Positions 1 to 37,922 of a stretch of DNA of 41,710 nt are shown here, one piece after another (the stretch's first letter is position 1; each line of letters opens with the position of its first letter). A program made the translations under genes and the position numbers. This DNA is from Clostridia bacterium (GTDB lineage Bacteria; Bacillota; Clostridia; Oscillospirales; CAG-272). The notes under the pieces were generated by a model, which made no database searches, was not told the origin of the DNA, and was given only the letters and a program-made list of their open reading frames with translations. The stretch lies in assembly GCA_017472305.1 (NCBI GenBank), contig JAFUQP010000009.1, forward strand, positions 1 through 41,710, written 5' to 3'.

Positions 1-246
1 GGCGATAAATTTTCGTGCCTTTTACCGCACCCCGCCTCGTAAAGTCCGCACTTGACTTCGGCAAGCTGCGGCAAAATTCTCTAAAAATTTCTTCGCCGTA
101 TGGTGCACAGCAGTTTTGAGTGAGCGGATTTTTTCATAGACGAATCGATTTTTTTGAAGAATATGCGGATATTTAAGAAAAAATCGGTGAAGTATATGGG
201 AAAATCCGCCATTCAAAACCTTGTGCGTTCGATTCCGCTACGGCTA
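1..246 (-). repeat. Structured dispersed repeat, copy 1 (left-truncated)
   Basis: Bases 1-53 are the exact reverse complement of 7094-7146. Bases 113-219 form a long interrupted hairpin: GCGGATTTT (124-132) pairs with AAAATCCGC (201-209), CGATTTTTT (146-154) with AAAAAATCG (178-186), and AATAT-gcgg-ATATT (160-173) is the tip. The outer arms GTTTTGA/TCAAAAC (113-119 and 213-219) pair with one end mismatch-free core. Its right terminus, GTTCGATTCCGCTACGGCTA (227-246), nearly matches the terminus of copy 2 at 7160-7179. Relative to copy 2 it is inverted. About 33 bp of the other end should lie left of the window. No open reading frame in it looks real. Whether it acts as RNA or as a DNA element is not known. 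Confidence 0.8.
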
Positions 247-363
247 TCCATTTCAGTATACACAATTCCGATGCGTTTGTCAATACCAAAGTCCCCTTTA
301 TTGGACAAATCGCCATTTGTTTTGCAAGGCATAGTTTACTTTACAACGTCCCGTACGGCGGAC

Positions 364-6903: not shown

Positions 6904-7179
6904 TAGCCAATGCCAACCTAAATCGAACCCGTTTTAAGAGGCGTATTTTCCGCGATAATGCGCCGAAAAGCTTCGTAATATCCGCATATTACTTCACCTT
7001 TTTGGCTTTTCTCGCGAAAAATTCGTCCTCTTAAAATAATTCTTACCTAAAGTGCCGAAAATTTGATGATATTTTTTGAAAGGGAGCGAAGCCAAGTGCG
7101 GACTTTACGAGGCGGGGTGCGGTAAAAGGCACGAAAATTTATCGCCGTAGGGCTTATGTGTTCGACTCCGCCACGGCTA
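6904..7179 (+). repeat. Structured dispersed repeat, copy 2 (complete)
   Basis: This 276-bp intergenic element starts with TAGCC and AATCGAAC (6904-6928). It contains a 105-nt interrupted hairpin (6932-7036; outer arms TTTTAAGAGG and CCTCTTAAAA, tip GTAATAT-ccgc-ATATTAC). It then has the 53-bp block identical to bases 1-53 (7094-7146) and ends with GTTCGACTCCGCCACGGCTA (7160-7179). That end resembles, in inverted form, the start expected from copy 1. The element lies between the catalase gene and the MATE stop codon, ending 10 bp short of it. Nothing in it looks protein-coding. A MITE-like element and a structured RNA are both possible. Confidence 0.8.
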
Positions 7180-13822: not shown

Positions 13823-14656
13823 ATGAACAGAGAAGAAATTATAACCGTGCTATCGGAGCTACACAAAATTACAGGCTTCAGAATTTCGCTTCACGGCACT
13901 GATTTTGAGGAAATTGCGGCGTATCCGGACTCGCCTCTCCCCTTCTGTGCTGCGGTAAACTCGATAAAGAGCGAGCACGAAAGGTGCCTTGAATGCGACA
14001 GAATTGCCTGCCGCCGCGCCGTGGAGACCAAGAAAACTCACGTATACAGATGCCGCTACGGGCTTACCGAGGCGGTGAGTCCTCTATACAATTTCGGAAT
14101 ACTGACCGGCTTTCTTATGATGGGCCAGGTCGCCGAGTGCGATGAGGACAGAGCACGTGCAGATAAGATGCTCCATAGACTTACGGACTCCTACACCGAA
14201 GAGAATTTTTCCGAAAAAATTCCCCTTGTAGGGGGAGAAATCGTAAGCTCGTATTTCAGAATTATGACGATTTGTGCACAATATCTGACACTGTCAAACG
14301 CAATGCACGGCAGGCGCGCAAGCTTTGCCGAGGATGCGATGAAATACATACGCGATAATCTGACGAAAAAAATCACCGTCGCGGATATTTGCCGTGCAGT
14401 GGGATGCTCAAAGTCCACGCTGCTCGTTGGGTTCAAAAAAAGCTTCGGCATAACCGTCGGTGATTATATCACCGAGCAGCGTCTGAAGGCAGCCGAGGAG
14501 CTGCTTTGCGGAAGCGAGCGCTCGATAAACGAGATTGCTCTTGACACAGGCTTCTCCGACCAGTCCTACTTCTCAAAGGTGTTCTCGCAAAGTCGGGGAA
14601 TGTCACCAAAGGAATTCCGTATAAAGAACACCGAAGAAAAAATTTCAAAATTGTGA
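13823..14656 (+). CDS. PocR-domain AraC family transcriptional regulator
   Basis: A 277-residue regulator. Residues 1 to about 150 form a PocR-type sensory domain (PF10114) with a cysteine-rich patch (Cys 42, 55, 58, 63, 77 in CAAVNSI, ERCLECDRIAC and YRCRYG). Residues about 170-272 are an AraC DNA-binding domain with two helix-turn-helices (VADICRAVGCSKSTLLVGFKKSF and INEIALDTGFSDQSYFSKVF). PocR domains sense small hydrocarbon-like ligands in characterised cases. It is divergent from the ROK-NahK kinase gene, with interleaved promoters, so it probably controls that gene and itself. Its stop codon overlaps the 3' end of rnpB by 2 nt in the convergent sense. Confidence 0.92.
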   Translation: MNREEIITVLSELHKITGFRISLHGTDFEEIAAYPDSPLPFCAAVNSIKSEHERCLECDRIACRRAVETKKTHVYRCRYGLTEAVSPLYNFGILTGFLMMGQVAECDEDRARADKMLHRLTDSYTEENFSEKIPLVGGEIVSSYFRIMTICAQYLTLSNAMHGRRASFAEDAMKYIRDNLTKKITVADICRAVGCSKSTLLVGFKKSFGITVGDYITEQRLKAAEELLCGSERSINEIALDTGFSDQSYFSKVFSQSRGMSPKEFRIKNTEEKISKL

Positions 14657-15021
14657 CCGAGCTTGTAAGCCGGGTTCTGTCGCTTGCGCGCAGCAATCAT
14701 CTATCTTCACTGCACGTTACCGTACAGTTCAAGCCTTGCGGCTCTGCCACCATAAATATAGGGACGGGCAGCCCCTCGGTATAACCCGAAATTTAAGGTG
14801 TTGCATCGGATAGGGTTTACAGCGAGCCTATGTTACCATAGGTTCGGGTGAGCTCTTACCTCGCCTTTCCATCCTTACCGCTTCTGCGGCGGTTTATTTC
14901 TGTTGCACTTTCCCTGAGGTCACCCTCGGCGGACGTTATCCGTTATCCTGCCCTATGATGCCCGGACTTTCCTCACCGTAATACCTTTCGGCACAATACG
15001 GCGCGATTGCCCCACTCGGTC
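14655..15021 (-). ncRNA. rnpB: RNase P RNA (class A type)
   Basis: The catalytic RNA of RNase P, which trims the 5' leaders of tRNA precursors. On the minus strand the 5' part has GAGGAAAGTCCGGGC (conserved region I) and the 3' part has ACAGAACCCGGCTTA (conserved region V). Helix P1 closes the molecule: GACCGAG at 15015-15021 pairs with CTCGGTC at 14655-14661. The resulting 367 nt is the usual size. A consensus promoter at 15028-15056 places the start at the first base of P1. The 3' end touches the stop codon of the convergent AraC gene. Confidence 0.97.
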
Positions 15022-15027
15022 TTTAGT

Positions 15028-37881: not shown

Positions 37882-37922
37882 TAGCCGTAAGGAAATTGAA
37901 CTGACAAGGCTCCTTACGGCTA
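37882..37922 (+). promoter_or_regulatory. 5'-terminal hairpin of pseudouridine synthase mRNA
   Basis: TAGCCGTAAGG (37882-37892) pairs perfectly with CCTTACGGCTA (37912-37922) around a 19-nt loop. It begins within a few bases of the predicted transcription start and may protect the 5' end or bind a regulator. No T tract follows, so it is not a terminator. Confidence 0.6.

Follow-up and report, generated by a model that had tools for sequence, protein, structure and literature searches.

REP palindromes are short and carry a GTAG/CTAC foot. For REPINs, the length of the spacer and its capacity to form a hairpin appear critical and compensatory changes are common, according to the part of the source available to us (PMC3116915). 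Bacterial MITEs such as Correia/NEMIS, ERIC, RUP and QMITE2 are described, in the accessible portions of two articles (PMC2229807, PMC10969869), as elements of ~100-200 bp with end-to-end pairing that derive mainly from IS elements. IS elements also insert into REP palindromes (PMC1525189, PMC8450116; each source available in part).

The element analysed here occurs in the window, by which we mean the whole stretch of 41,710 nt that was analysed. As far as the accessible REPIN text goes, it resembles REPIN/RAYT systems in being intergenic and non-autonomous, in its symmetric inverted ends and in keeping length and hairpin capacity with compensation, and REPINs are closest to it in working style. 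Unlike them, it measures ~278 bp and contains a pair of long internal hairpins as well as a terminal stem that closes it. With the bacterial MITEs, in the same portions of the literature (PMC2229807, PMC10969869), it shares terminal inverted repeats, a stable fold and an intergenic position, TA termini being found in several of them; in contrast to MITEs, it shows compensated drift of both arms and ends from genus to genus, and the search revealed no IS. The CIR elements of Caulobacter, in the excerpt at hand (PMC2229807), likewise have two long hairpin arms with a linker, a terminal-loop motif and a phylogenetically conserved structure, but they belong to another phylum and are without terminal inverted repeats, whereas our element has a 27-bp closing stem. 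Palindromic targets recall the insertion of IS elements into REP sequences (PMC1525189, PMC8450116, in the parts available), although here the inserted element is short, no gene was seen in it, and it lies in the loop of a terminator-like stem in one sublineage only. Within the open-licence PMC literature, titles and the opening parts of abstracts held nothing that we recognised as this element. Given the likenesses to REPINs, MITEs and CIR and no counterpart recognised in the literature, we place it as a new, structure-conserved form of non-autonomous mobile DNA, and we consider it probable that it is mobile DNA of ~278 bp on which selection keeps the folded shape more than the sequence. Judged by the tests made so far, it is no IS630 MITE; as for REPINs, the search for a RAYT gave a mixed picture, and the short tagged palindrome of the REP type is missing, since its ends mostly read TAG...CTA and its hairpins are ~105 nt long.

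The ~278-bp element has 27-bp terminal inverted repeats at its two ends and, between them, two hairpins of ~105 nt each, hairpin 1 coming first and hairpin 2 following after a short spacer; the whole adopts a three-armed fold. Hairpin tips usually lie ~78 nt in from their own element end. The intact copies fall into two subfamilies: A is 280 bp long, with L002 as its type copy, and B is 276 bp long, with L028 as its type copy. Both fold into a closing terminal stem with two hairpins at -119 to -134 kcal/mol. The spacer (A1 columns 137-149) reads CTGCTTCGCACC, or close to it, in subfamily A and in many outside elements, and forms a tiny, sequence-conserved hairpin.

Copy 1 (positions 1-246) belongs to subfamily A, runs hairpin 1-first on the minus strand and has copies that are 98-99% identical elsewhere in the genome. 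Its positions 1-219 match covariance-model positions 28-252, and it is truncated by the contig start, with ~34 of 280 nt gone, the other terminal repeat included. The terminal inverted repeat that it keeps lies at 220-246 (minus strand; pattern match with 0 mismatches), hairpin 1, with the loop CCGC, at 113-219 (minus strand; it folds, and a self-complementary hit spans 113-219), and hairpin 2 approximately at 1-100 (minus strand; fold of window 1-260). Copy 2 (6904-7179, plus strand, from a covariance-model match over the same positions) is a hybrid whose left part belongs to subfamily B and whose right part belongs to subfamily A: it has 2 mismatches to a B copy in its first 203 nt, and approximately its last 90 nt match an A copy. 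The overlap of the B and A matches puts the junction in a stretch common to both subfamilies at the tip of hairpin 2 (7087-7106, plus strand). Hairpin 1 of this copy, of subfamily B, is intact by folding (6932-7036, plus strand). The B-type terminal repeat at 6904-6930 (plus strand; pattern match 6904-6927, end read from the sequence) is mismatched with the A-type repeat at 7153-7179 (minus strand; pattern match with 1 mismatch). The whole copy folds poorly (z -1.5; -79.8 and -85.3 kcal/mol on the two strands), and its parts other than hairpin 1 pair poorly. A third, miniature remnant of 41 nt at 37882-37922 (plus strand) has two facing ends only; it was identified by a pattern match at 37882-37908 with 2 mismatches and from its sequence.

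Element ends are mostly TAG...CTA with variable neighbours, and CA...TG ends are also present. We observed the motif TTCGA, as in the T-loop of tRNAs, in element ends, mostly 18-19 nt from the end (for example at window 220-246 and in L267); it was present in an end of 23 of 58 elements, against 4.4 in shuffles. ARAGORN detected no tRNA in the window, L052, L266 or L267.

An earlier note on this DNA had reported two long hairpins with differing stems that both pair. The hairpins were located as claimed, 113-219 being 107 nt and 6932-7036 being 105 nt, and their pairing was confirmed by folding each against dinucleotide shuffles. The z values on the two strands were -8.0 and -11.0 for 113-219 and -6.5 and -7.9 for 6932-7036, and in each of the four folds (two hairpins on two strands) 0 of 200 shuffles folded as well. 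Pairwise alignment of the two hairpins gave 70 identities in 109 columns, so they are related sequences in which both arms have changed; as the hairpin of copy 1 is of subfamily A and that of copy 2 of subfamily B, this first comparison was one of an A hairpin with a B hairpin. The long hairpin is real, but it is only one arm of the larger ~278-bp element. The 14-nt tip that had been described as shared is identical in both hairpins (a search allowing at most 2 mismatches gave 4 hits in the window, namely these two sites on both strands, against 0.44 expected) but is not invariant across the wider family. The compensatory pattern extends past the two copies. When 25 elements were aligned, RNAalifold gave 95 pairs, and for 70 of these at least one element had a double change that preserves pairing. 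Simple palindromic duplication without a shared alignment, named by the earlier note as the result that would speak against it, was not what we found, as the copies align and unpaired stretches recur across genera at the same distance from the apex.

Covariation was assessed with a script imitating R-scape, using the G statistic with average-product correction, on 46 genus-level elements aligned by MAFFT without structure; the hybrid, elements shorter than 265 nt and near-identical elements were excluded. As a null, Fitch-placed substitutions were redealt along the branches of a FastTree tree in 30 null alignments. Significant covariation (E<0.05) was detected at 11 of 37,128 column pairs, and all 11 were among the 75 consensus pairs (7 in the terminal stem, 3 in hairpin 1 and 1 in hairpin 2). 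Covariation above this tree-based null supports selection on folding, as the paired changes had been taken to mean.

The same picture was obtained with 58 non-redundant elements drawn from 119, after dropping the hybrid, the 19 of 119 without a clear apex in one hairpin and elements at least 80% identical to one kept; in this set the search for the apex was confined to 74-83 nt from the end. Hairpin arms were 76% and 74% paired, compared with 55% and 54% with shuffled arms, and the left arms of different elements had a median identity of just 51% and 41%. Terminal repeats were 89% complementary, yet only 41% identical between elements. The length was 275-282 in 56 of the 58 elements, a constancy that partly reflects ascertainment, since the model used to find members outside the genus itself had this structure and length. 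In an unrestricted palindrome search 40-120 nt from the end, the longest palindrome started 76-80 nt in on 97 of the 119 sides with hairpin 1 and on 73 of the 119 with hairpin 2. At 21-23 nt from the hairpin 1 apex just 5-12% were paired, which makes this a recurrent unpaired stretch.

Long quasi-palindromes undergo template-switch correction of one arm from the other. The complementarity of the arms might then be renewed by mutation, with template switching correcting one arm, and not by selection; the hybrid copy 2, which switches subfamily inside a 20-nt stretch at a hairpin tip, fits such a process. Mutational renewal should, however, erase mismatches, whereas unpaired stretches recur in elements of different sequence, and their fixed distances argue against arms merely copying each other. 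Terminal repeats ~220 nt apart also covary, with 7 of the 11 significant pairs. We therefore consider renewal by mutation an unlikely source of the complementarity.

Strong covariation of the kind seen in RNA would also be expected if the element were the gene of a transcribed structured RNA, such as a small RNA or a retron- or OMEGA-like guide, repeated by chance, possibly with kissing between its two loops. Selection on a single RNA strand should make G-U better tolerated than A-C along the whole of it. We counted wobbles on the hairpin 1-first strand with symmetric scoring, only in columns paired in at least 70%, with p values in which relatedness is handled by 80% clustering only. Hairpin 1 had 70 A-C against 42 G-T (p=0.010), hairpin 2 had 63 G-T against 20 A-C (p=2e-6), and the terminal stem had 49 G-T against 33 A-C, which was not significant (p=0.10). 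The sign was opposite between the hairpins inside the genus and outside alike. An excess of wobble on opposite strands in the two hairpins means that a single RNA strand does not explain both. In either hairpin, wobble is tolerated on the strand that leads outward to the nearer terminus, which is what symmetric recognition of two DNA ends would give, a moderate and not decisive indication. A G-U excess from RNAalifold had pointed to a bias towards a single RNA strand; it was discounted because the RNAalifold pairs come from a model rewarding G-U, and under symmetric scoring the sign differs between the hairpins.

In 15 of 58 elements the two loops were reverse complements over their full length, where permutation gave 3.7 (21 of 58 when G-U is allowed), which speaks for the RNA reading, but complementarity was missing in the other 43, and within the GNCA/TGNC class it was found in 6 of 15 against 4.3 expected (p=0.21). 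We treat kissing loops, suggested by reverse-complementary loops in the window's subfamilies, only as a possibility. Nothing on the element reached an Rfam gathering score: the sole match above it in the window was RNase P, and in a search of 8 loci at E<=5 it was reached by nothing but a tRNA located outside the element. Window 14650-15022 is a bacterial RNase P class A RNA gene. The neighbours of the element are variable, and neighbouring reading frames run in mixed directions at 39 loci with long flanks, which also argues against an RNA gene. The retron- or OMEGA-like guide suggested by the earlier note is not supported, given that Rfam gave no match above a gathering score, that the two hairpins have their G-T excess on opposite strands, that the copies are dispersed in the manner of a MITE, and that no partner was seen: among the ten window proteins searched in Pfam there was neither a reverse transcriptase (retron partner) nor an IscB/TnpB (OMEGA partner). 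An RNA function is a weaker reading than one based on DNA, possible yet improbable.

In its own genome (2.03 Mb, 42 contigs), searches at E<=0.01 gave 24 matches with copy 1 and 37 with copy 2 as query, figures that include partial and opposite-strand hits of one copy and are not copy numbers. Many of these matches were 96-100% identical, and many were at contig ends, as expected of repeats, which break assemblies. A sequence search of 98 genomes, the window's own included, found subfamily A in 20 and subfamily B in 18. With a covariance model based on 25 full elements, matches were obtained in 34 of the 69 genus genomes at E<=1e-5 and, in a search that scored at most 4 candidates per genome, 80 of 394 sampled genomes of the order at E<=1e-6, spanning 39 of 168 genera. 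A second model search used 66 of 68 order loci (L289 and L324 were excluded), and all its matches within 97,913 bases landed on an element. The near-complete genome G304 carries the element at 15 places. Scanning named genomes for the B end returned 18 stretches, all of them from Clostridia MAGs of roe deer or goat gut, while viral contigs, plasmids and phages, queried with a single end pattern or a single A element, gave no match.

Small size, terminal inverted repeats and many dispersed copies are features of MITEs, and the element shows all of them. Among the suggestions of the earlier note, a transposition hairpin proved the best fit, in view of the near-identical dispersed copies and the terminal inverted repeats, and it is further backed by abutting copies with a common TA and by very short derivatives. 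Abutting copies with one common TA were found at G040:C47, G021:C2, G024:C51, C71 and C46, G007:C6 and G012:C7, the arrangement expected if one copy inserts at another's terminal TA. The short derivatives have two facing ends and measure 31-52 nt. We observed that the side-by-side copies sharing a TA belong to different subfamilies, repeatedly and in several genomes.

The TA at both ends, common to abutting copies, may mark a target site, though CA...TG ends occur too, and together with the terminal inverted repeats it would suit an ordinary IS630/Tc1-mariner MITE with a TA target. However, none of 20 genomes, including 12 carriers, had a match to DDE_3, the domain of the IS630 type (as a control, the profile matched in 3 of 14 control genomes), and terminal sequences vary between lineages. 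We regard this origin as highly improbable.

A second, putative kind of insertion site was seen in a sister lineage of GGCG-ended elements, a class defined only after the pattern had been seen in G304. Here 19 of 27 flank pairs scored at least 8, compared with 3.8 expected with swapped flanks, and 15 scored at least 10, compared with 1.7 expected. The pairing of these flanks resembles that of an intrinsic terminator stem, with the element as if in the loop. The 19 pairing flanks come from 11 copies in G304 (within L335-L348) and from eight copies in eight other genomes (L305, L308, L309, L311, L315, L316, L318 and L322), and within 35 nt all 19 have at least 4 T to their right or at least 4 A to their left, an uncontrolled count. 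G304 also has two isolated ends, solo ends of 31-34 nt that lie within terminator-like stems. The flank set comprised 134 elements, after duplicates and elements without 25-30 nt on a side had been dropped, and within it pairing was at chance level in the window's genus (2 of 50, 2.0 expected) and in the other elements from outside the genus (2 of 57, 1.4 expected).

A further alternative is mobilisation by a RAYT or another Y1 transposase, in a REPIN-like system. REPINs keep spacer length and hairpin capacity with compensation, according to the available part of PMC3116915. Y1_Tnp (PF01797, E<=0.001) matched in 4 of 12 carriers, namely G303, G370, G332 and weakly G304, the first three having stronger, partly broken matches, and in 2 of 8 non-carriers, G005 and weakly G036. 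RAYT-like proteins (NF047646, below the curated cut-off) were found at L361, L367 and L362 in G304, G303 and G036, respectively; they correspond to the weak Y1 matches of G304 and G036 and to one of those in G303. The RAYT-like gene of G304 is ~2.1 kb from an element. These finds in carriers favour a REPIN-like mover, but eight carriers (G000, G040, G037, G024, G047, G007, G249 and G412) had no Y1_Tnp match at E<=0.001, an absence that is not firm, as the RAYT-like genes themselves score just 1e-4 to 8e-4 with this profile. None was found in the 6 tested carriers of the window's genus, the non-carriers G005 and G036 have one, and in the stretches fetched around the RAYT-like genes of G304, G303 and G036 the sole match to the element was 29 nt at 83%. 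Across the 20 genomes tested Y1 transposases do not track the element, which is a further difference from REPIN/RAYT systems, and we think it unlikely that the element is moved in this way.

An autonomous element with the same ends was sought among facing end pairs, picked by eye in 13 genomes (two end patterns) and 4 genomes (one pattern). Four facing pairs 0.7-4.3 kb apart contained no recognisable transposase, and all four were rejected as autonomous elements. By Pfam, the ends of L163 (4.3 kb) hold CinA, SecG, methylase and phosphoesterase genes, those of L164:118-828 (G035:C24; 0.7 kb) a Coat_F gene, and those of L369:247-1978 (G000:C39, in the window's genome; 1.7 kb) an acyltransferase gene; the ends of L370 (1.5 kb) hold a phosphodiesterase-like frame, recognised by reading the sequence only. 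In L164, the ends consist of a terminal repeat and half of hairpin 2 around ~550 bp, so that the gene lies as if in the hairpin loop, and in L369 an end with half of hairpin 2 faces a degenerate end.

Returning to mobile DNA kept by its shape, we propose that a transposase or recombinase acting in trans would recognise the ends in folded form, either as single strands or as cruciforms, through their terminal bases and a hairpin at a fixed distance from them. Only copies that still fold would then be moved, so that the arms would stay complementary while the sequence drifts. In the window's lineage the element probably lands at TA, judging from its ends and the abutting copies. In the sister lineage, the same architecture is in the loop of terminator-like stems, with flanks that pair, which suggests that the mobiliser may also read hairpins at the target. 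A more far-reaching proposal, which we make tentatively and consider rather doubtful, is that these elements form a separate class of non-autonomous mobile DNA that inherits a three-armed shape with fixed dimensions, and not a sequence, as its identity; a hairpin-reading recombinase would move them in the form of folded single strands, with one lineage targeting terminator loops, where the folded insert would let the terminator arms meet.

Small mobile repeats are usually defined by their sequence, and this element could be traced through an order of bacteria by its structure and length even where most of its sequence had changed. It provides a well-replicated natural record of which parts of a fold matter in mobile DNA. 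With no transposase visible, finding its mover becomes a well-defined task, and in the terminator-loop sublineage it should be possible to test cleanly whether hairpin DNA is recognised at the target as well as at the donor.
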